Assembly (NCBI GenBank): GCA_016195665.1
Contig: JACPZD010000027.1
Coordinates: forward strand, 1-64,000
Source of the DNA: Gammaproteobacteria bacterium
GTDB taxonomy: Bacteria; Pseudomonadota; Gammaproteobacteria; SURF-13
DNA length: 64,000 bases
Reading direction: 5' to 3'
This document shows positions 5,281 through 64,000 of this stretch, piece after piece. A model generated the notes under the pieces. The model was not told the origin of the DNA. It did not search any database and worked only from the letters and a program-made list of their open reading frames with translations. Position numbers and translations under genes: made by a program. The stretch's first letter is position 1, and each line of letters opens with the position of its first letter.

Positions 5281-5607
5281 ATGTATACGGAACAAAAAGA
5301 TACATTGATCGTGGAAAGCGTGAGGGAAGACGGCCGGGTATTCCGCCCCAGCGATTGGGTGGAACGCATCTCCAGTCAACTGGCCACCTACGGCCGCGAC
5401 CACCGGCTGCACTACTCCGATCACGTACACCCGTGCCTGATCCAGGGCGCGAATTGCCTGGTGGTGAAGAAGTCGCTACAGGACGAAAACCCAAAAGCCT
5501 ACCAGTTCATCCTCAAGTTCGCCGCCGACAATCAACTGCGCGTCCAGGACGACCGCCGCAGCCAGTCCGCCCTGGTACCCACCGAACGGCGCGGCACCCT
5601 CTCGTAG
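5281..5607 (+). CDS. DUF3579 family protein
   Basis: A 108-aa soluble protein of unknown function. It is recognised as DUF3579 by VESVREDGRVFRPSDWVERI, the conserved tyrosine/glycine/arginine segment that follows, and YQFILKFAADNQLRV near the end. Two starts are possible: the ATG at 5281, preceded by AGAGG, or an in-frame GTG at 5263; I prefer the ATG. The sigma54-type promoter and the position next to flagellin suggest a link to motility or nitrogen/envelope control, but that is inference. Its stop codon TAG is part of the first REP palindrome (cgTAGgtcagg), so the extreme C-terminus abuts mobile repeat DNA. Confidence 0.85.
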   Translation: MYTEQKDTLIVESVREDGRVFRPSDWVERISSQLATYGRDHRLHYSDHVHPCLIQGANCLVVKKSLQDENPKAYQFILKFAADNQLRVQDDRRSQSALVPTERRGTLS

Positions 5608-5925
5608 GTCAGGCTGCGAAGCTGCCTGACAAGCCGTCAGGCAGGCTAACGCCAACCTGACCTACAAACCCATGCATGAGCACTTCCCGTAGGTCAGGTT
5701 GCCGAAGGCTACCTGACTAACCCATCCACAACCAAAAACCGTCAGGTAATGCTACGCACAACCTGACCTACAAATTCAAAAACTACCGTAGGTCAGGCTG
5801 CGAAGCTGCCTGACAAGCCGTCAGGTAGGCTAACGCCAACCTGACCTACAAACCCCTTCATTCGCCAAACCGTCAGGGTACGTAGTTTCGTAGCTCCGTC
5901 CGTAGCTTCGCAACGTGACCTACCA
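5603..5925. repeat. REP/BIME cluster downstream of the RAYT gene
   Basis: This roughly 320-bp gene-free stretch is made of GTAGGTCAGG...CCTGACCTAC palindromes. Units are at 5603-5668, 5689-5774 and 5787-5853, with a degenerate half-unit at 5870-5925. Each full unit is a pair of head-to-head REP hairpins (gtcagg...cctgac) preceded by the GTAG tetranucleotide that marks REP sequences mobilised by RAYT transposases. The units differ in loops and in the linker between hairpins. Confidence 0.9.
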
Positions 5926-5931
5926 GGACCC

Positions 5932-6447
5932 TCACTCAAAATCCATCCGCTTAATTTCTGCGGGTTCGGCCTCTCCCCAATTCTCGGCATAATACTCCTT
6001 GGCGACATACGCCCGGAATGACGACCAAGGGTAATCTAAAGGTAACCCCGCGCAACCGTGTTTTACCGGGTTGTAATGGACATAATCCATGTGCCGTTTC
6101 AAATCATCCTCATCACGAATGACGTGGTCCCAAAAGCGCCTTTGCCAGGCGACAAAATTACCCTCGATGCCATGTTCTGCCTTGTAAAGATGAGTAAATC
6201 CGAGCTTGAGCGATTGCATAACTGCTGAGAAGTTCCCATCGCCGCCGGGCTTTATCATCCAGTGGAAATGATTATCCATAATCACGTACGCCTCCATTTT
6301 ATAAGGATTATCCGCTTTGATCTCGCGCATCACCGACAAAAGTAATTCTTTATCAGTATCTTGTTTGAGCAGTGGCTGACGCTGATAACACACGGACGTG
6401 ATGAACACTATCGAACCAGGGCGGTAATAGCGTCTGATATTTGTCAT
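5932..6447 (-). CDS. REP-associated tyrosine transposase (RAYT)
   Basis: A single-domain Y1/HUH transposase (171 aa) of the IS200/IS605-related RAYT group, which cuts and joins single-stranded REP hairpins. Visible motifs are the HUH metal site in IMDNHFHWMI (about residues 76-85) and the conserved DYVHYNPVKHG, whose tyrosine is the expected nucleophile. The N-terminus (RRYYRPGSIVFITSVCYQRQ) is typical of the family. The gene is intact and flanked on both sides by REP pairs, so the whole unit is a REPtron. RAYT genes are usually domesticated, single copy and not mobile themselves. Confidence 0.95.
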   Translation of the reverse strand: MTNIRRYYRPGSIVFITSVCYQRQPLLKQDTDKELLLSVMREIKADNPYKMEAYVIMDNHFHWMIKPGGDGNFSAVMQSLKLGFTHLYKAEHGIEGNFVAWQRRFWDHVIRDEDDLKRHMDYVHYNPVKHGCAGLPLDYPWSSFRAYVAKEYYAENWGEAEPAEIKRMDFE

Positions 6448-6466
6448 TAATGAAGTTCCCCCAGAA

Positions 6467-6604
6467 CGTCAGGTAGGCTAACGCCAACCTGACCTACGCG
6501 CCTAAGATGGGAATTTCCCGTAGGTCAGGTTGCCGCAGGCTACCTGACGTTTCATCCGACACCAAAAACCGTCAGGGTGTGCTACGCACAACCTGACCTA
6601 CAAA
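6467..6604. repeat. REP/BIME units upstream of the RAYT gene
   Basis: A half unit (6467-6497, ending CCTGACCTACG) lies 20 bp before the RAYT start, and a full unit (6518-6604, CGTAGGTCAGG to CCTGACCTACAAA) follows. The full unit is closest to the copy at 5689-5774, sharing the long linker between its two hairpins. It ends a few bases from the vapC stop codon. Confidence 0.88.
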
Positions 6605-6609
6605 TCTTC

Positions 6610-10675: not shown

Positions 10676-12013
10676 TCAGATCCCGTAGGCAATGCGCAGC
10701 AGCGTCAACGGATGCGTCGGCGGCTTGCCGCTGTGCATCCCTTCTTCCAGATGATGGCCCGCTATTGGGCAGTCGCTGGTGTAAAAATCCGGTGCGGCCT
10801 TGGCGATGCGGTCCATGACGGGGCTGCCGATCTTCATCGCAATTTCGTGATATTCGCGTTTCACCGCATAGGCGCCGTTGTGCCCTGAGCAGCGCTCGAT
10901 CGGTTCGACTTGGGTATCGGGCACCAGTTCCAGCGCCTCGCGGGTTTTCAGACCGATGTTCTGCACCCGCAGATGGCAGGCGACATGGTAGCTCACCTTG
11001 CCGAGCGGGCGCTTGAAGTTCTTATTGAGCATCCCGTCCTTGTGGCGCAGCATCAGGTATTCAAACGGATCGAAGACCGCATCGCGCACCTTGGCGACTT
11101 CCGGGTCGTCGGGAAACATCAGGGGCAACTCCTGCTTGAACATCAACACGCAGGACGGGACGGGCGCGACGATGTCCCAGCCTTCGTCCACCAGCTTGGC
11201 CAGCACCGGGATGTTGGCCTCCTTGGCGCGCGCGACCGCTTCGAGATCACCGAGTTCAAGCTTGGGCATGCCGCAGCATTGCTCCTTTTCGGCGAGCCGC
11301 ACCGGGATGCCATTGTGCTCAAAAATCGCAATGAGGTCCTGACCCAGTTGCGGCTCGTTGTAATTGCCGTAACAGGTGGCGAACAACGCCGCCTTTCCGC
11401 GGGTAGCGGATGAGGGCCGTGCGCTGACAGGCTTCGAAGCCGTGCGCGGCGCCTCACGTTTACGCAGCGTATCGCTGTGGTATTCGGGAATAAAGGCGTC
11501 GGGATGCACGCCTAATGTCTTGTCTAAAATTTTGCGCGCAGCCTTGTTTTTGTTCGCGGCGTTCACCGCTTGCACTACTACCGGTATGCCGGCGAGTTTA
11601 CCGACGGCGTCGGTGCTGGTGAGGATCTTGTCGCGCGTCCTGACCTCGCCCTTCTTAAACTTGACCGACTTGCCGCGCAACATGAGATGCGGAAAGTCCA
11701 CGTTCCAGGGGTGCGGCGGCACATAGGGACATTTGGTCATGTAGCACATATCGCAGAGATAGCAGTTATCCACCACCTCCCAATACACCTTCTTGTCCAC
11801 CCCGTCCAATTCCAGTGTGGGAGACTCGTCAATGGCGTCAAACAGGACGGGAAAGGAATTACACAGATTAAAACAGCGCCGGCAACCGTGGCAGATGTCG
11901 AACACCCGCTCCAACTCCTGGAGCAGCGACGCCTCGTTGTAGAACTCCGGATTTTTCCAATCCAGCGGGTGCCGGATGGGCGCCTCCAGACTGCCTTCGC
12001 GTTGATCTTCCAT
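10676..12013 (-). CDS. Fe-S oxidoreductase with two 4Fe-4S clusters and CCG domains
   Basis: A 445-aa protein related to GlpC/heterodisulfide reductase subunit D. Cysteines 41, 44, 47, 51 (CHGCRRCFNLC) and 84, 87, 90, 95 (CYLCDMCYMTKC) form two ferredoxin-type clusters. The C-terminal half has CCG-type cysteine motifs, including EQCCGMPKLELG and the CSGHNGAY segment. Such proteins pass electrons between quinone or flavin partners. It lies between rubrerythrin and the ferritin-like gene, a grouping that suggests it supplies electrons for peroxide reduction, which is inference. TGAGG precedes the ATG. Its TGA stop overlaps the ribosome site of the next gene. Confidence 0.87.
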   Translation of the reverse strand: MEDQREGSLEAPIRHPLDWKNPEFYNEASLLQELERVFDICHGCRRCFNLCNSFPVLFDAIDESPTLELDGVDKKVYWEVVDNCYLCDMCYMTKCPYVPPHPWNVDFPHLMLRGKSVKFKKGEVRTRDKILTSTDAVGKLAGIPVVVQAVNAANKNKAARKILDKTLGVHPDAFIPEYHSDTLRKREAPRTASKPVSARPSSATRGKAALFATCYGNYNEPQLGQDLIAIFEHNGIPVRLAEKEQCCGMPKLELGDLEAVARAKEANIPVLAKLVDEGWDIVAPVPSCVLMFKQELPLMFPDDPEVAKVRDAVFDPFEYLMLRHKDGMLNKNFKRPLGKVSYHVACHLRVQNIGLKTREALELVPDTQVEPIERCSGHNGAYAVKREYHEIAMKIGSPVMDRIAKAAPDFYTSDCPIAGHHLEEGMHSGKPPTHPLTLLRIAYGI

Positions 12014-12660: not shown

Positions 12661-14136
12661 TTGTCTAAATCTGTTTACTATCTTACAAGCCCCCGCCAGG
12701 AAGTGTCAAGCATCTCGGGTTATACGCCTAATAGATGCATGCAAGGAGATGAACTTGGTATTATTGACACCCACTCTTTTAGCCTACTTATCCACGATCA
12801 GTCCTGCAAGCGAATGTTAAACGAAAACAAAACGGACAGCGCAGGCTCCGATGAACATTATCTGGACCACCTTGCCACCATCAATAAAGATCGTGATGTG
12901 GTGGCCATCCAAGACATCTACAATACCAGCGGGGCGCTGCTGGTGCGGCAGGGGGCACGGATTGATTATGCCACCGCCAGGCGCCTTACTCAGCATAAAT
13001 CGTCCAAACCCGTAGAACACCAGCTCCAAATCGAAGGTGGCTTAACCACCGATGGTCTGAACCAGCAGCTGCAGAAATTCCTGGAACAGCATGAGGATCT
13101 GGCAACTGTCCAGCGCAGCCTCGGGGCGGACGATGATCTCGCCGTGTTATTTGAGAAACCACTCAGCCCCACCCTACTCCAGAAGCTCACGGTGATGGCC
13201 TTGCAACGGCCCACGCTCCTGGAACAGGCGTTGTTCGGGGGCTGGCTGGCGGTGCTCCTGGCGAGAGAGCTCGGTCTGCACCCGGCGGAGATCAGAAAGG
13301 CGGGCATCGCCGCCCTCACCCGTGACACAGGCTTCCTCCACCTCCCGCCCGTACTCATCGAGCAAGGACGCGAGTTTAGTCCCCAGGAGTGGCGCGCCAT
13401 GCAGAGCCACACGGTGGTAGGACAAATTATTCTGGATGACACGGCTGGGATGGATCCCGAAATCGGCCGAGCGGTGCTGGAGCACCATGAGGCCCTGGAC
13501 GGCTCCGGCTATCCGACCGGCAAGGAAGGGCCGGCGCTCGGTCTGCTCGGGCGGGTCGTTAACCTGGTCGACACGCTGTGCGCCATCCGCCTCAAAAATT
13601 TCAAAGACACCGGACGTAATCTACGTGACACCCAGCCTTTTTTGTTAATGAACAGCCATGCCTATGAGCGTAACGTCCATGACGCGATCTGTTCAATCTT
13701 GCGTAAATCGGGCCTGGAGCGCACCTCTATAAATCCACTCGGTAACCAGGCCAACCTGCTTGCTCAACTCATCGCGCAGGGCAACACCATGCGTCGCGCC
13801 CTTCCCGTTGCGAAAGAATTGAATGACCTACACGCGTGGACGGGGTCCACCGCGAGAAAGCTCGGCAAGGTCGCCCTCCAGACCTACACCCTGATAACCT
13901 CGTCGGGGCTCGTGAATGATGAGATCATCAACTGGTTAGATAGCTTGCCGCTGGAACCACAGGCCGATGAAATAGTCTTCCTTAGCGAGATCGAACTGCT
14001 GCAGAAGGAGTTACGCTGGCACCTTACTCACCTGCAGCGCGCCCTGGCGGCGTATCTTAACGAAGCCAGCCCGCACGATCCGTCTTATGGTAGGCTCAAG
14101 GAGCTGGCCGTGGGGCTAGAAAACAGTGAGGCGTGA
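12661..14136 (+). CDS. HD-GYP-like domain protein with degenerate HD motif
   Basis: A 491-aa cytoplasmic protein containing a degenerate HD-GYP domain at about residues 190-320. HHEALDGSGYPTG (275-287) and the upstream H250 are kept. The metal-binding HD of the usual HDxGK is replaced by RDTGF (221-225), and the later AD is VD. It may have lost cyclic-di-GMP phosphodiesterase activity and act as a sensor or scaffold. The rest is helical with no membrane segment. The start is uncertain: TTG at 12661, ATG at 12739 or 12814 are all possible. The stop (GAG GCG TGA) lies in the gtgagg-type repeat, as in fliT. Confidence 0.75.
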   Translation: MSKSVYYLTSPRQEVSSISGYTPNRCMQGDELGIIDTHSFSLLIHDQSCKRMLNENKTDSAGSDEHYLDHLATINKDRDVVAIQDIYNTSGALLVRQGARIDYATARRLTQHKSSKPVEHQLQIEGGLTTDGLNQQLQKFLEQHEDLATVQRSLGADDDLAVLFEKPLSPTLLQKLTVMALQRPTLLEQALFGGWLAVLLARELGLHPAEIRKAGIAALTRDTGFLHLPPVLIEQGREFSPQEWRAMQSHTVVGQIILDDTAGMDPEIGRAVLEHHEALDGSGYPTGKEGPALGLLGRVVNLVDTLCAIRLKNFKDTGRNLRDTQPFLLMNSHAYERNVHDAICSILRKSGLERTSINPLGNQANLLAQLIAQGNTMRRALPVAKELNDLHAWTGSTARKLGKVALQTYTLITSSGLVNDEIINWLDSLPLEPQADEIVFLSEIELLQKELRWHLTHLQRALAAYLNEASPHDPSYGRLKELAVGLENSEA

Positions 14137-14226
14137 GGGGCTTGAAACGTGTAAGGGGTGAGGGGTGAGGAGTCGTACACCCCTACGCTTTTTTTACGCC
14201 TCACGCCTAACTCCTCACGCCTCACC
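14129..14226. repeat. gtgagg-type repeat, inverted pair
   Basis: GTGAGGCGTGAGGGG and further GTGAGG words on the plus strand are followed, after ACGCTTTTTTTACG, by the reverse-complement block ACGCCTCACGCCTAACTCCTCACGCC. The two halves can fold into a long hairpin between the convergent HD-GYP-like and membrane-protein genes, and may act as a terminator for both. Confidence 0.8.
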
Positions 14227-14231
14227 TTTTT

Positions 14232-14624
14232 CTAATGAGGTTTCACCTCTACCAGCAAGGCCCCGGTGATAATTACGAAGGCGCGCACCCAGAGGATCGC
14301 CTTGCCCTGGCCGCGGTGGTCTTCGCGGGCCGTTTCATCGCCGCGCAATAACCGCCGCCCCGCCTGAATCTGCATGACGTAGAGCATATAGAGCGAGAGC
14401 AGCAGCAAAAAATGCGTCCACAGCAGGAAAGACGTAAGCTCTCCCTCGACGATCAGCCGGCGGTGCCAGTCCTTGCTCATATAAAGGTAGACCGGCATGG
14501 CGATATCGAACAGCATGATCGCTACCATGACCGGTATGTGCACGGTGCGCCGTTTGGCCCAGACAAACGCCGCCAGCATCACCAGGTAGGTAAGGAAGGC
14601 GGCCAGCACGGTAGCGGCAATCAT
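14232..14624 (-). CDS. Small integral membrane protein, function unknown
   Basis: A 130-aa protein with four predicted membrane helices: residues about 2-22, 30-48, 62-84 and 108-127. Between helices 2 and 3 it has a WHRR motif, and there is a charged loop RRLLRGDETAREDHRGQGK before the last helix. I do not recognise the family. Histidines near helices 2 and 3 could bind haem, but the pattern is not diagnostic. Repeat DNA bounds it on both sides, and it has no operon partner. Confidence 0.6.
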   Translation of the reverse strand: MIAATVLAAFLTYLVMLAAFVWAKRRTVHIPVMVAIMLFDIAMPVYLYMSKDWHRRLIVEGELTSFLLWTHFLLLLSLYMLYVMQIQAGRRLLRGDETAREDHRGQGKAILWVRAFVIITGALLVEVKPH

Positions 14625-14639
14625 GCCGCCATGCTACAG

Positions 14640-14781
14640 GGGCTAGGGGCTAGGGGCTAGGGGGTTTGAAACTTGTGAGGGGTGAGGGGTGAGGGGTGAG
14701 GAGTGAGGAGTGAGGTGTCGTACACCCGCCTTACGCCTTACGCCTAACTCCTCACGCCTCACTTGTTTGCAACGCCTCACC
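14640..14781. repeat. Gene-free repeat block: GGGGCTAG words and gtgagg-type inverted pair
   Basis: Three copies of GGGGCTA(G) at 14639-14662 are followed by GTGAGG words (14677-14715) and the complementary TCACGCC/CCTCACGCCTCAC block (14728-14781). It separates the small membrane protein from the divergent VKOR fusion gene. No gene is seen in 14625-14852. Confidence 0.8.
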
Positions 14782-21390: not shown

Positions 21391-21412
21391 GATTGTTTTC
21401 CTAGCGAGTAAC

Positions 21413-21491
21413 AGCGAGGCGTAAGGGGTGGGGCGTGAGGCGTAAAAAACTGTTTCCCCTCACTCTTCACCCCTCACTCCTCACTCCTCAC
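21413..21491. repeat. gtgagg-type repeat between gap and pgk
   Basis: GAGGCGTAAGGGGTGGGGCGTGAGGCG is followed after AAAAACTG by CCTCACTCTTCACCCCTCACTCC, giving an imperfect inverted repeat. It fills the gap between gap and pgk, both on the minus strand. Confidence 0.75.
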
Positions 21492-22502
21492 TCATTTGGC
21501 GTTCACCAACGCCACCGTAACGTCCAGCATCCGATTGGAGAAACCCCATTCGTTGTCATACCATGCGAGCACCTTGACCAGTTTACCTTCGACAACCTTG
21601 GTCAGCGTGGAATCGTAGGTGCTGGAGGCCGGGTCATGATTGAAATCCACGGACACCAGCGGCTTGTCGTTGTAATTCAACACACCCTTCAGTTCGCCGT
21701 TGGCCGCCTCTTTCATGATGGCGTTGATCTCATTCACGCTGGTCTCGCGCGCGGCGACGAAGGTCAAGTCCACCAGCGACACATTGATGGTCGGCACACG
21801 CACCGCGAAGCCGTCGAGCTTGCCTGCGAGCTCTGGCAGCACCAGGCCGATGGCGGCGGCGGCGCCGGTCTTGGTGGGGATTTGCGACATGGTCGCGGAG
21901 CGCGCGCGGCGCAGGTCCGAGTGATACACGTCAGTCAGCACCTGATCGTTGGTGTAGCTGTGCACCGTGGTCATCAGGCCATGCACGAGACCGATTTTTT
22001 TATGCAACGGCGCCACCAGCGGCGCCAGGCAGTTGGTGGTGCAGGAGCCGTTGGAGATCACGGTATGCGTAGCCTTCAGGGTCTTGTGATTCACCCCGTA
22101 CACAATGGTCGCGTCCACATCTGTGCCCGGCGCGGAGATGATGACCTTCTTTGCACCCGCTTTGAGGTGCAGGCCGGCCTTCTCTTTGGTGGTGAAGATG
22201 CCGGTGCACTCGTGCACCACGTCCACGCCCAGCTCGCCCCAGGGCAGCTTGGAGGGATCGCGCTCCGCGCATACGCGGATGCGGTCACCATTGACGATCA
22301 TAAAATCGCCTTCGACTTTTACTTCGCCGGGGAATTTTCCGTGCACCGTGTCGTACTGCGTGAGGTGCGCGTTGGTCTCGGCATTGCCTAGGTCGTTCAC
22401 AGCGACGATTTGAATCTCCTTGTTGCGATTACCTTCATACACCGCTCGCAACACGTTGCGCCCAATGCGGCCGTAGCCGTTGATTGCTACTTTGATTGCC
22501 AT
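21492..22502 (-). CDS. gap: Glyceraldehyde-3-phosphate dehydrogenase
   Basis: A 336-aa type I GAPDH. The Rossmann start [20 protein letters not shown], the active-site [13 protein letters not shown] with its catalytic cysteine, and the C-terminal [14 protein letters not shown] are clear. It interconverts glyceraldehyde 3-phosphate and 1,3-bisphosphoglycerate. Calvin-cycle gap genes often lie beside tkt and pgk as here. GGAGAG gives a strong ribosome site. The residue after the first beta strands cannot by itself settle NAD versus NADP preference. Confidence 0.97.
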
Positions 22503-44829: not shown

Positions 44830-46041
44830 ATGAACCTGCACGAATATCAGGCCAAGCAACTGCTCGCCGCCGCCGCGGTACCCATCACCGAGGGCGCCCC
44901 CGCGTCCTCTGTCGAGGAGACGCTCATCGTCGCCCGGCGGTTGGGCGGCGAGAGCTGGATCATCAAGGCGCAGGTGCACGCGGGCGGACGCGGCAAGGCG
45001 GGCGGCGTCCGGCGCGTGCATAGCCTGGCCGAGGTGGAGAACGCCGCATCCGCGCTGCTCGGCTCGCGGCTGGTGACCGTGCAAACGCCGCCGCAGGGCC
45101 TGCCGGTGCACAGCGTGCTGGTCGAGCGGCCGTGCGCCATCGCGCGCGAGTTGTATCTCGCCCTCACCGTGGAGCGCAGCCGGGAACGGGTGATCATGAT
45201 CGCCTCGGGCACGGGCGGGATGGATATCGAACAGCTTGCCGCGAAAGATGCGGCGGTCGCTCCCGGCATCCTGCCTCCCGCGACACTGGCACATCCCTAT
45301 GCGGCGCAGATCCACAGCGCGGAGATACACCCCGTGGCCGGGTTGCAAGCCTATCAATGCCGTGATATCGGCTTCGCACTGGATCTTGGCGATAAACAGA
45401 TTGCTCAATTTACCAAAATCGCGCTCGCGCTATACCGGCTGTTCCTGGAAAAAGACGCAAGCCTCATCGAGATCAATCCGCTGATCGTGACCGGCGCGGG
45501 AGAATTGCTCGCGCTGGACGCCAAGATCACGCTCGACGACAACGCGCTGTATCGCCACCCCGACCTCGGCGTTCTGCGCGATGAGACACAAGAGGATGTG
45601 AGAGAGAACAGCGCGCGGCAATTCGGGCTCAACTATATAAGCCTGGACGGCGACATCGCCTGCATGGTGAACGGCGCGGGTCTCGCGATGGCGACCATGG
45701 ATTTAATCAAGCTGCACGGCGGCGCGCCCGCGAATTTTCTCGATGTCGGCGGCGGCACCACGGCGGACAAGGTGGCCGAGGCGTTCAAACTCATCCTCTC
45801 CGACGGTAAGGTAAAGGCGATACTGGTCAACATCTTCGGCGGTATCGTGCGCTGCGACCTGATTGCCGAGGGCATCATCAAGGCGGTCTCGGAGGTGGGC
45901 ATCACGCTCCCCGTCATCGTGCGTCTGGAGGGCAATAACGCCGAACGGGCGCGCGAGTTGCTGCGCATCAGCAATCTAAAAATCATCGCCGCGAGTGATT
46001 TGACCGATGCGGCTATAAAGGCAGTTGCAAGTGTCAAGTAG
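44830..46041 (+). CDS. sucC: Succinyl-CoA synthetase beta subunit, carrying an in-frame repeat insertion
   Basis: The ADP-forming beta subunit (403 aa) of the TCA cycle enzyme. The ATP-grasp start [73 protein letters not shown] and [16 protein letters not shown] are all normal. It is about 15 residues longer than the E. coli protein. The excess is at residues about 142-159 ([15 protein letters not shown]), encoded by a palindromic repeat at 45253-45306 that also occurs elsewhere in the window. The site is in the ATP-grasp region, between two conserved segments, so activity may be preserved. Confidence 0.95.
45253..45306 (+). repeat. Palindromic element, copy A, in frame inside sucC
   Basis: The core GTCGC-TCCC-GGCA-TCC-TGCC-TCCC-GCGAC (45257-45285) is a symmetric hairpin: paired ends, unpaired TCCC blocks, an inner 4-bp stem and a 3-base loop. 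Thirty bases are identical to copy C at 62661-62690, and similarity continues for about 24 more bases on the right. Copy B lies in the MutT-ThiE gene in the opposite orientation. Confidence 0.92.
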
Positions 46042-55299: not shown

Positions 55300-55409
55300 G
55301 TTACTCATAAGTCAGTAATTAAGACTACACTTCATGCTACGTCTCCGCCCCCTATTGAGGGGGCGGGACAGGGTGGGGTAGAGTAAACAGGGTTTTTACT
55401 CAGGAGTGT
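55300..55409. repeat. 110-bp dispersed repeat, copy 1
   Basis: Begins GTTACTCATAAGTCAGTAA and ends TTTACTCAGGAGT, with an internal hairpin CCGCCCCCTattgAGGGGGCGG at 55345-55367. It is alike at about four of five positions to 58494-58602, in the same orientation. It lies in the 285-bp gene-free region after clpB, which otherwise holds only a short unsupported frame at 55214-55318. Confidence 0.88.
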
Positions 55410-57460: not shown

Positions 57461-58504
57461 ATGGATGAACATCTGAATCACCAACATGTCGTAGCAGCGG
57501 CGATTTTTAACAAACAGGGCGAGGTGTTGCTGGCCTTGCGGCCCGCGCATTTACATCAAGGCGGTTTGTGGGAATTTCCGGGCGGGAAGATCGAGGCGGA
57601 TGAAGACGTGCGCACGGCGCTTGCCCGCGAACTGCACGAGGAACTGGGGATCACGGTCACTCGCGCCCGGCCGTTGATCCGCATTCCGCATCGTTATCCA
57701 GATAAGGCTGTGCTCTTAGATGTGTGGCGGGTGGATGATTTTGCGGGCGAAGCTCACGGCCGGGAGGATCAACGCCTGGAATGGGTGGCGGTGAACCGGC
57801 TGCGTGACAAGAGTTATCCTGCGGCCAATCTTCCCGTCATCACGGCGCTGGAATTACCCTCGCTCTATCTCATCAGCGAAGAACCCGCGACGTACCGGGA
57901 TGTACTAGTGTCGCGGGAGGCAGGATGCCGGGAGCGGCCGGACCCGGCCGCCTTTCTCGCCACCCTCGAAGCCTGGTTGAAAAACGGCGCGAGACTGATT
58001 CAGTTGCGCGCCAAGACCCTGGACGAAGACGCTTACGCCGCGCTGGCCGTTAACGCGCTGACCTTGTGCAAGCACTATAACGCAGAACTGCTTTTGAATG
58101 CCCCGGTGCAAATCGTCATGGAGCTGGGCGCCCCCGGCATTCATATGAGCAGTGCGCAACTGCTGGGTTTTGAAACCCGGCCGGTGGGAAAAGAAAAGCG
58201 GGTCGCCGCCTCCTGCCATACCGCGGCGGAACTTGCCCATGCACTCGCCATCGGCGTGGACTTTGTAGTGGTTTCTCCGGTGCTGCCCACAACAAGTCAC
58301 CCGGGGGCCGCGACACTGGGCTGGACAGGCCTACGGGCGCTGACCGAGCAGGCCACCGTGCCGGTGTACGCCTTGGGGGGGATGCAGCCGGAACACCTCG
58401 ATCCGGCCTGGCAATACGGGGCGCAGGGGATTGCCGTGCGCGGCGTCTGGCCGAGCGTCAAACCGGCCGAATTCATGGCTCATTTTCAGAGTCGTTACTC
58501 ATAA
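57461..58504 (+). CDS. mutT: Nudix hydrolase MutT fused to a ThiE-like domain, with an in-frame repeat insertion
   Basis: A 347-aa fusion. Residues 1-135 are MutT, which removes oxidised nucleotides such as 8-oxo-dGTP; the Nudix box is at 41-64 (GGKIEADEDVRTALAREL and EELGI). Residues about 160-347 are a thiamine-phosphate-synthase-like barrel (RLIQLRAKTLDEDAYAA, GIHMSSAQLLGFE, VVSPVLPTTSHPGAA). The linker at residues 143-161 ([16 protein letters not shown]) is encoded by a palindromic element also found in sucC and before pilC. The stop codon TAA lies in the 110-bp repeat that follows. Confidence 0.92.
   Translation: MDEHLNHQHVVAAAIFNKQGEVLLALRPAHLHQGGLWEFPGGKIEADEDVRTALARELHEELGITVTRARPLIRIPHRYPDKAVLLDVWRVDDFAGEAHGREDQRLEWVAVNRLRDKSYPAANLPVITALELPSLYLISEEPATYRDVLVSREAGCRERPDPAAFLATLEAWLKNGARLIQLRAKTLDEDAYAALAVNALTLCKHYNAELLLNAPVQIVMELGAPGIHMSSAQLLGFETRPVGKEKRVAASCHTAAELAHALAIGVDFVVVSPVLPTTSHPGAATLGWTGLRALTEQATVPVYALGGMQPEHLDPAWQYGAQGIAVRGVWPSVKPAEFMAHFQSRYS
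57887..57943 (-). repeat. Palindromic element, copy B, in frame inside the MutT-ThiE gene
   Basis: The reverse complement matches the copy in sucC: GCTCCCGGCATCCTGCCTCC and on through CGCGACACT, with similarity over about 45 bases. One end base pair of the outer stem is changed. It is inserted in the opposite orientation to copy A relative to the gene, and read in a different frame, yet it leaves the frame open. Confidence 0.9.
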
Positions 58505-58602
58505 ATCAATAAGTAAGACTGCACTTCCCGCTACGTCCCCGCCCCCTGTGCAGGGGGCGGGACAGGGCGGGGGTAGGTAAAACAGGGTGTTTACTCAGGA
58601 GT
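58494..58602. repeat. 110-bp dispersed repeat, copy 2
   Basis: GTTACTCATAAATCAATAAG to TTTACTCAGGAGT, with internal hairpin CCGCCCCCTgtgcAGGGGGCGG. It supplies the TAA stop of the MutT-ThiE gene. Together with copy 1 it brackets 3.1 kb containing the small ORF, the RHH/RelE pair, argJ and mutT, in direct orientation. Confidence 0.88.
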
Positions 58603-61418: not shown

Positions 61419-62633
61419 TTATACCACTGCCCCCAACTTGAATATAGGCAGATACATCGCCACTACCAAACCGCCGACCAGCACGCCCAGTATCACCATG
61501 ATGAGCGGCTCGAGCAGGCTGCTCAAGGAGTCCACCTGGTTGTCCACCTCTTCCTCGTAGAAATCGGCGACCTTGGTGAGCATCGTGTCCAGCGCGCCGG
61601 ATTCTTCTCCGATTGCGGCCATCTGCACCACCATGTTCGGGAACAGATTGGATTGACGCATGGCCTGGTTCAACTGCTGGCCGGTGGATACCTCGTCGCG
61701 CATCTTGAGGATGCCGTCCGCGTAGACGATGTTGCCCGATGCCCCGGCGACCGATTGCATGGCCTCCACCAGCGGCACGCCGGCGGCGAACATGGTGGCG
61801 AGGGTGCGCGCGTAGCGGGCGATAGTGGCCTTGGTGACGATGCCGCCGATGATCGGCGTTTTCAGCAGCATGCGATCGAGCAGCCGGCTGAATTTGCGCG
61901 AGCGGCGCTTGGCCTGGACGAGTCCCATGACGGCCAGTATGATGCCGCCGAAGATCGCCCACCACCACTGCTGGAAGGCCGCCGAGAGGTCAATGACGAA
62001 GCGGGTCAGGGCCGGCAGGTCGGCGCCGAATCCCTTGAACAAGGACTCGAACTGCGGGATGACAAAAATGAGCAGGATGGCGGTGATGATGAAGGCCACC
62101 ACCAGCACGGCGGTGGGATACCACAGGGCCTTTTTGATCTTGCCTTTCAGGTTCTCGATCTTTTCCTTGTAGATGGCGATCTTGTGCAGCAGGGTTTCCA
62201 AAATACCGGCGTGTTCGCCGGCGCGCACCAGATTGCAGAACAATTCGTCGAAGTAATAGGGGTGTTTTTCCAGCGCCTCGGTCAGTGAGGTGCCGCTCTC
62301 CAGATCGCCCTTGATGGCGAGCATCAACTCCTGCATGCTGGGATTGTTATTCCCGCGGCCGATGATCTCGAAGGATTGCACCAGCGGCACGCCCGCCGAG
62401 ATCATGGTGGCAAGCTGGCGGCTCATGACGGCGATGTCTTTGGGGGTGATCTTCTTCTTGCGGCGCCCGAAGTTAGAGCGCTTTTTGATCTTGATGGGGT
62501 TGATGCCCTGCCGGCGCAGATCCGCCTTGACCAGCGCGACGGTCGTGGCGCGCGTCTCGCCCTTGATACGGTTGCCCAGTCTGTTGGAACCTTCCCAAAT
62601 GAAGGTATCTTGTTTAATCGCCTTTGCAGCCAT
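61419..62633 (-). CDS. pilC: Type IV pilus inner-membrane platform protein PilC
   Basis: A 404-aa GspF/PilC membrane protein that couples the assembly ATPase to pilin insertion. FIWEGSNRLGNRIKGETRAT near the start, the two repeated GspF domains with LATMISAGVPLVQSFEIIGR and TLATMFAAGVPLVEAMQSVA, and three membrane helices are visible. The frame opens upstream at 62720, but that part translates a repeat; the ATG at 62633 is chosen. Confidence 0.95.
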   Translation of the reverse strand: MAAKAIKQDTFIWEGSNRLGNRIKGETRATTVALVKADLRRQGINPIKIKKRSNFGRRKKKITPKDIAVMSRQLATMISAGVPLVQSFEIIGRGNNNPSMQELMLAIKGDLESGTSLTEALEKHPYYFDELFCNLVRAGEHAGILETLLHKIAIYKEKIENLKGKIKKALWYPTAVLVVAFIITAILLIFVIPQFESLFKGFGADLPALTRFVIDLSAAFQQWWWAIFGGIILAVMGLVQAKRRSRKFSRLLDRMLLKTPIIGGIVTKATIARYARTLATMFAAGVPLVEAMQSVAGASGNIVYADGILKMRDEVSTGQQLNQAMRQSNLFPNMVVQMAAIGEESGALDTMLTKVADFYEEEVDNQVDSLSSLLEPLIMVILGVLVGGLVVAMYLPIFKLGAVV

Positions 62634-62660
62634 AATGTTCAAGACCTCTCGTGTAACACA

Positions 62661-62715
62661 GGTCGCTCCCGGCATCCTGCCTCCCGCGACATTAGCACGT
62701 CCGTGTGCGGCACAA
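62661..62715 (+). repeat. Palindromic element, copy C, between pilB and pilC
   Basis: GGTCGCTCCCGGCATCCTGC and on to CCCGCGAC (62661-62690) are identical to copy A in sucC, and the next 24 bases match at about three of four positions. This is the only intergenic copy of the element in the window, lying 28 bases before the pilC start. Confidence 0.92.
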
Positions 62716-62781
62716 GACAAACTACTCCTTATTCGACATTAGCGGCAGAAGAATGGATAACTTTAGTGTCTCGGTCAAATT

Positions 62782-64000
62782 TTATTCGTTGGTGACCCGG
62801 TTGACTTCCTCAAGGCTGGTAACGCCCTGTTTGACCTTCTTCAGCCCCGACTCGCGCAGGTCGGCGACCCCTTCTTTTTTGGCCTGATCGTTGATCTGCA
62901 TGGAGTTGCCGTCCGCCATGATGATACGCCCCATTTCCTCGGAGACCGTCATGACTTGATAGATGCCGACCCGGCCGCGGTAACCCTCGGCGCAGTTCTC
63001 GCAGCCGGCCCCGGGGCCGTAGACCTTGAAATTGCCGATCTCTTCCGGCTTGAAGCCTTCTTCGAGCAGCGCCTCCTTCGGAATGTCCAAGGGTTTTTTG
63101 CAATGGGGGCACAAACGCCGGGCGAGGCGCTGGGCAATGATGAGCGAAATCGAGGAGGCGATGTTGAATGGCGCGACACCCATGTTCACCAGCCGGGTCA
63201 GGGTCTGCGGGGCGTCGTTGGTATGCAGGGTGGAGAGCACCATGTGGCCGGTCTGCGCGGCCTTGATGGCGATCTCGGCCGTCTCGAGGTCGCGGATCTC
63301 TCCCACCATGATGACGTCCGGGTCCTGGCGCAGAAAGGCGCGCAGCGCCGAGGCGAAGGTGAGGCCGGCCTTGGGGTTGACATTGAGCTGGTTGATGCCG
63401 GGGAGATTGATTTCCACCGGGTCTTCGGCGGTGCAGATATTGCGGTCGGCGGTGTTGAGGATAGTCAGCGCGGTGTACAGCGACACGGTCTTGCCGCTGC
63501 CGGTGGGGCCGGTGACCAGCACCATGCCGTAGGGGCGGTGGACGGCGTCTATAAAGAGTTTCTTTTGCTCTTCTTCGTAACCCAGCGCGTCTATGCCGTG
63601 CTGGGCGCTGGCCGGGTCCTGGATGCGCATCACGATCTTTTCGCCGAACAGCGTGGGGCAACTGCTGACGCGGAAGTCCACTGCGCGATTCTTGGAGATC
63701 TGCATCTTCATGCGGCCGTCCTGCGGGACGCGCCGCTCCGAGATGTCGAGCCGCGACATCACCTTGAGCCGTGCGGCGATGCGATTGGCGAGCGCTACCG
63801 GCGGCGAGGCCACCTCACGCAGCACGCCGTCCTGGCGAAACCGCACCCGCAGCGCCTTTTCATAGGGCTCGAAGTGGACGTCCGACGCCCCTTTGTTGAT
63901 GGCGTCCAACAAGACCTTGTTGACGAACCGCACCACCGGCGTGTCGTCTACATCCGCCTCGGAGGCATCAGCCGCGGCCTGCTCGTCGCCGGAGGTGATC
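62782..64000 (-). CDS. pilB: Type IV pilus assembly ATPase PilB (5' part outside window)
   Basis: The C-terminal 406 residues of the GspE/PilB hexameric motor that drives pilus extension. Visible are [20 protein letters not shown], Walker [17 protein letters not shown], the Asp and His boxes, Walker [21 protein letters not shown], and the zinc site CPHCKKPLD with [17 protein letters not shown]. The N-terminal domain lies beyond the window edge. It is followed by pilC and pilD. Confidence 0.96.

Follow-up and report, generated by a model that had tools for sequence, protein, structure and literature searches.

A probably mobile palindrome of codon length within the protein genes of Gammaproteobacteria

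A palindrome of 51 bp, equivalent to 17 codons, occurs in about 104 copies in a gammaproteobacterial genome of 2.38 Mb, where most copies run in frame through protein-coding genes and where insertions of the same unit can be recognised against empty alleles in related genomes. On the balance of these observations, we consider it probable that the element is a non-autonomous mobile palindrome that has become adapted to life within protein genes. Three copies, designated A, B and C, lie in the window, the whole stretch of 64,000 nucleotides that was analysed (Table 1).

Copy number, unit and hairpin structure

Throughout the genome, a 23-base core of the palindrome, searched with up to 3 mismatches, was matched 103 times (49 forward, 54 reverse; 28 exact) versus 0 times for the reversed control pattern, which excludes chance and local duplication as the source of the copies. 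Equally, with up to 3 mismatches allowed, a 21-base core was matched 3 times in the 64-kb window and 0 times in 100 shuffles. A preliminary description of the window, drawn up around copy C, had held that a genome without further copies would point to chance or local duplication; the genome-wide count gave the opposite result.

The 104 copies with flanks could be aligned without gaps, three matches at locus edges being left out for want of flank. The unit measures 51 bp in 89 of the 104 copies and 69 bp (23 codons) in the remaining 15, which carry a longer right hairpin, and both lengths are divisible by three. Information content rises steeply at the unit ends and stays at background level outside; inside, hardly any change is seen in the left 30 bases, while the 21 bases to the right vary. 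The same unit length is seen in tandem copies, which are spaced exactly 51 bases in one locus of this genome (L050) and show the 51-base period in arrays of other genomes as well (L126, L155, L159, L162). Together, the copies occupy about 0.2% of the genome, with one copy in about every 23 kb.

The unit comprises two hairpins with compensatory base changes. Folded as single-stranded DNA, it forms a 30-base left hairpin, in which a 5-bp stem, an almost invariant TCCC/TCCC internal loop and a 4-bp stem follow each other, and then a second small hairpin. Folding z-scores are -3.1 and -2.8 for the consensus strands and only -2.3 and -0.9 for a sequence like copy C. Among 218 distinct sequences from 271 places, mutual information recovered the right-hand pairs 34-45, 30-50, 35-44 and 33-46 unprompted. 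In 180 distinct short-form sequences, chosen for intact CC.T, C/T at 30 and A/G at 50, a choice that biases the count of pair 30-50, the pair 34-45 is TA in 96, CG in 68, GC in 5, AT in 3 and another combination in 8. With pair 30-50 excluded, the score for covariation on both sides is 1.01, whereas 500 shuffles gave a mean of 0.15 with a maximum of 0.23, and slid partners at most 0.16; the score is strong but, since the copies are related, does not translate into a probability. Furthermore, left-stem variants in other genomes (TCAC...GTGA, CCGC...GCGG, GACA...TGTC) preserve the pairing.

Table 1. Copies of the palindrome in the window and the genes that contain or adjoin them
Feature	Position	Strand	Remarks
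Copy A, 51-bp palindrome	45256..45306	+	in frame in sucC (frame +0), encodes 17 residues; the 51 bp are missing from sucC of relatives
Copy B, 51-bp palindrome	57888..57938	-	in frame in the MutT-ThiE fusion gene (frame -1), encodes 17 residues
Copy C, 51-bp palindrome	62662..62712	+	between pilB and pilC, most likely in the pilC leader; left arm as in copy A; without counterpart in relatives
sucC, succinate-CoA ligase beta subunit	44830..46041	+	host of copy A; NCBIfam NF001913 above cut-off
Nudix hydrolase / thiamine phosphate synthase-like (MutT-ThiE) fusion	57461..58504	+	host of copy B; NCBIfam NF006530 above cut-off
pilC-like gene (presumed)	61419..62633	-	downstream of copy C; start ATG at 62633, backed by relatives
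pilB-like ATPase gene (presumed)	62782..63999	-	upstream of copy C; runs past the window end

Copy C is a palindrome, as had been described, and is found between two genes that we take to encode a pilB-like ATPase and a pilC-like protein, the latter name coming partly from the preliminary description; copy A, in agreement with its earlier assignment as coding, lies within sucC. The identity of these two copies over 30 bases, from which recent movement or gene conversion had been proposed, was recovered as 31 identical bases (GGTCGC...GCGACA) within 54 bases of 89% identity. Movement finds support in the copy number, the empty sites of relatives and the nested and tandem insertions, but a recent event linking A with C does not follow, because the 30-base left arm is nearly invariant across about 104 copies and in other genera.

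The pilC reading frame stays open across copy C, and the ORF caller placed its start at a TTG at 62720. As the relatives begin pilC at an ATG that matches the downstream ATG of the window, copy C most likely sits in the leader, outside the gene body. The element is missing from the pilB-pilC spacer in 5/5 relatives; its insertion cannot be isolated precisely because the spacer (window 62634-62781) holds further DNA beyond copy C that is also missing in the five relatives. For copy A, the predicted model of SucC (mean pLDDT 74.8) places the insert at residues 143-159, mostly within the stretch of lowest confidence (134-156), which weakly hints at compatibility with a flexible loop.

Insertion into genes and empty sites in relatives

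By a codon-usage test, 65 of the 104 copies lie in an open reading frame that continues through the element, the best frame being identical on the two flanks, and 39 failed; the codon model was built from 16 window genes, the test is heuristic and some weak scores were counted. The consensus is open in frames +0, +2, -1 and -2 and has stops in +1 and -0. Coding copies are distributed as (-,2) 38, (+,0) 15, (-,1) 10 and (+,2) 2, with 0 in both stop-containing frames. After removal of 14 nested or tandem copies, 55/90 are coding, with (-,2) 34, (+,0) 15, (-,1) 6 and (+,2) 0. Within each orientation the frames are unequally used, which strand bias cannot produce by itself but which would follow from selection acting on the peptide or from targets biased in codon phase.

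Of 40 host ORFs scanned with NCBIfam, a part of those listed, 39 were matched at E <= 1e-5, with some matches weak or under the curated cut-off. Clear hosts include succinate-CoA ligase beta, enolase, TrpE, LysA, FolC, mannose-1-phosphate guanylyltransferase, RecG, PriA, DnaG, HflX, MnmE, Lnt and UvrA (just above cut-off). Valine-tRNA ligase (valS) and PcnB each carry two inserts, and oligopeptidase A is a clear host too, a second insert being located in an equal-length ORF of locus L078. One ORF that matches CbbX and CsoS2 (carboxysome scaffold) models (L050, 1752-5156) accommodates five units in one orientation and one in the opposite, two of them in tandem. Several copies are also found within a few kb in genes that match AddA and AddB models under curated cut-offs (L007, L044, L045; contig C5 of this genome, G000, about 8-14 kb).

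Five genomes of the same family, G001 to G005, contain 19, 30, 6, 42 and 16 matches, respectively, versus 105 here, and comparison with them supplies empty sites. Four insertions of G001, in genes that by our own reading encode Tgt, GlmM, TopA and TsaD, were set against G005, G003, G002 and this genome (and G004 for Tgt), and every compared allele is without the element. The flanks in G005 are 87-95% identical to those in G001, and the two genomes differ by a net 51 at Tgt, TsaD and TopA and by 54 at GlmM, where one additional codon of local change is included; the TopA value is a recount by eye of the printed alignment, the flank arithmetic having given 49. In sucC of the window, the element is missing in the five relatives, with a net difference of 51 versus G001, G003 and G005 and a larger one versus G002 and G004, and E. 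coli SucC (1jkj_B) has a gap at the position of copy A. At the compared empty and filled sites, no duplication of target bases was seen. From such genome comparisons we infer that the element is mobile. On the other hand, a RecG-like site holds the element in three genomes, in the short form in two and in the long form in the third, and a ValS loop is used in two; some copies are therefore old, transferred or at hot spots. In a GcvT-like site, one genome has three tandem units and a relative two, again with a net difference of 51.

Beyond the family, a scan of genome contigs for the exact pattern gave at least 119 stretches. Among the matches listed, the named records are nearly all from Gammaproteobacteria, with MAGs of this class, Sedimenticola, Thiohalophilus, Halomonas, Methylomonas, Gilvimarinus, Pseudomonas and Nitrosomonas eutropha as named carriers; single MAG records labelled Klebsiella and Phycisphaerae, equally among the matches listed, may be mis-binned. 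The element was present in 31/369 genomes of a class sample and in 3/398 of a phylum sample, namely this genome and two from one genus of another class. Plasmids, phages and E. coli genomes gave no match to the 52-base consensus by blastn, and viral contigs gave 0 matches to the exact pattern.

In other genomes, the peptide is inserted into the same gene families at differing places. In ORF clusters of the named loci, it occurs in 9/11 HsdM-like and 8/8 ValS/IleS-like proteins, at several different places and mostly as variants of one 17-residue sequence; these cluster names, as well as RecG- and GcvT-like, are of our own reading. HsdM-like type I restriction-modification proteins of several genera have the peptide at several sites (nine loci), which suggests a favoured or tolerant target.

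How the palindrome might move

A non-autonomous mobile palindrome could operate as follows. A candidate enzyme encoded elsewhere would recognise the hairpin of the left arm, probably in single-stranded DNA, and would paste one unit beside a G without target duplication. With a length divisible by three and stop codons in only two of the six frames, the unit would in many cases survive within a gene, as a peptide of 17 or 23 residues in a tolerant loop, with protein function as the filter; selection would then favour the frame whose product is the small, glycine-rich D-V/A-Q-G-x-x-N/S-V-A-G-G-R-x-P-G-A-T. The wider proposal, to which we give an even chance, is a family of codon-length mobile palindromes spread through the class Gammaproteobacteria, the insertion of which usually leaves a working protein with a flexible linker of 17 or 23 residues and the unit of which is moved, also into its own inverted copies, by a putative hairpin-recognising enzyme.

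With nested and tandem copies excluded, the base preceding the unit is G in 72/90 and the third base past the unit is a purine in 83/90, a weak target preference that is not clearly visible on the empty alleles. Ten of the 104 copies are nested in an inverted copy, with split points in the reverse unit only at 26 (four), 29 (five) and 33 (one), and four are in tandem. Such nesting is above chance, as elements that occupy only about 0.2% of the genome would yield far fewer cases.

Candidates for a mobilising enzyme were sought in the neighbourhood of the copies, and the preliminary description was right in that no dedicated transposase is visible beside any of them. None of the nine Y1_Tnp (Y1/RAYT transposase) genes of this genome has a copy within the examined flanks, a search for Y1_Tnp in G005, which carries 16 copies, found nothing at E <= 0.001, and the single copy near one Y1_Tnp gene of G004 is about 0.9 kb off and on one side only; a RAYT as the mobiliser accordingly finds no support here. 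A hidden autonomous element as common neighbour was discarded as well, the ORF clusters of the loci L119-L237 being host genes with no transposase among the 25 largest clusters. Equally, between the clustered copies of locus L049, nothing mobile was found, the ORFs being PBP1B-like, as confirmed by NCBIfam, and GltX- and NlpC-like by our own reading. REPIN/RAYT and IS200/IS605-type systems combine hairpins, lack of target-site duplication and non-autonomous copies, all of which the element shares; unlike in REPIN/RAYT systems, no RAYT gene of this genome is flanked by it.

An explanation that dispenses with a dedicated enzyme is template switching, in which a stalled replication strand folds at the hairpin, switches template and pastes a copy elsewhere, while gene conversion homogenises the copies. 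No enzyme is linked to the copies, their left arm is nearly invariant, and inverted copies nested at three fixed points together with tandem arrays are products expected of hairpin-primed switching. However, the sharp unit ends and the net difference of exactly 51 at 4/5 loci in unrelated host sequence suggest defined ends, and the recurrence of the 51-bp unit across many families of the class would require repeated horizontal transfer, so that we judge this course of events unlikely.

Transcription of most copies, to be expected from their location in genes, might alternatively feed an RNA route, in which the folded element is reverse-transcribed from messages and inserted by a resident reverse transcriptase; structure kept by compensatory changes fits RNA as well as single-stranded DNA. 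Yet coding copies occur in both orientations, which would put both strands into messages, and the window gave no Rfam match at gathering thresholds; this route appears improbable.

Still less credible is a functional genome motif, such as an uptake or protein-binding sequence, which selection would maintain and which would spread through transformation and homologous recombination. The far stronger conservation of the left arm than of the right and the several hosts that match DNA-repair and replication families (AddA, AddB, RecG, PriA, UvrA, DnaG) would agree with it, but recombination is unable to place a 51-bp unit anew where all compared relatives have an empty site, the density is low, at about 1 per 23 kb, and copies nest in one another. 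A likeness of A and C by chance or local duplication in the window has practically no standing against the genome-wide matches and the dozens of copies in other genera.

Relation to known repeats and other repeats of the window

The element can be placed beside several known classes. Delihas (2007) reportedly dealt with coding small mobile sequences; like these and like MITEs such as ERIC, the element is a short non-autonomous repeat that is sometimes intragenic, but, unlike in MITEs, its unit is not bounded by terminal inverted repeats, and the sites examined show no target-site duplication.

In its behaviour, the element resembles a Rickettsia palindromic element (RPE), in an unrelated host group. 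RPEs and the coding palindromes of Wolbachia are described as many-copy palindromic repeats in ORFs that keep the frame and give ordinary proteins of metabolism and repair an additional peptide; RPEs measure about 100-150 bp, occur in Rickettsia and Wolbachia and are mostly conserved in position between Rickettsia orthologs (PMC3767692, PMC10969869). The palindromic repeat with many genomic copies, inserted in ORFs with the frame intact, is common to both, whereas the gammaproteobacterial element departs from these descriptions in its length of 51 or 69 bp, in its hosts, in its independent sites and in the empty alleles found among congeners.

The GTAG/CGTC REP superfamilies (Di Nocera 2013) are short hairpin repeats that form dimers and clusters and, though mostly intergenic, are in some cases found in genes (PMC3733652), features that are again shared. 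In that account, RPE-4 and RPE-6 are equated with CGTC REPs, which have no dedicated transposase, and a REP is defined by an unpaired GTAG/CGTC tag at one end, a single stem of 8-9 bp and a loop of 4-5 bases, the CGTC type having AT at stem positions 1-2 and a CCA tail (PMC3733652). Measured against the definition as worded there, the element differs in that no GTAG/CGTC tag precedes a stem of 8-9 bp that has AT at the base and in that most of its copies are coding; a CGTC does occur at bases 47-50 of most copies, inside and after the small hairpin, at the unit end.

Neither the sequence of the element nor its peptide strings, nor the topic, was found in the literature searched, and where a 2024 review touches on a similar process in other prokaryotes, it is termed only conceivable (PMC10969869). 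The palindrome represents a clear case of a coding palindrome outside the rickettsial bacteria: it is present in many copies, its sites can be empty in congeners, and members of the same gene families have received it independently. Two questions become testable with it, namely what moves such elements and whether useful protein segments arise from them.

The window also holds other repeats. Its RAYT-like Y1_Tnp gene (6121-6396), as the preliminary description had recognised, sits amid a different repeat, CGTAGGTCAGG... (5603-6605), which contains GTAG as do GTAG-tagged REPs and is unrelated to the 51-bp element. A second interspersed family, of the kind AGATACAAGATAAAAG, is found in both orientations at 12011, 20090, 29227, 30174, 51665 and 61319 and elsewhere. 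Clusters of short repeats of the CTAACGCCTCACGCC type occupy 10-99, 14112-14780 and 21407-21509, and two 88-base copies, 83% identical and containing a GC-rich hairpin, are situated at 55300-55387 and 58494-58581.
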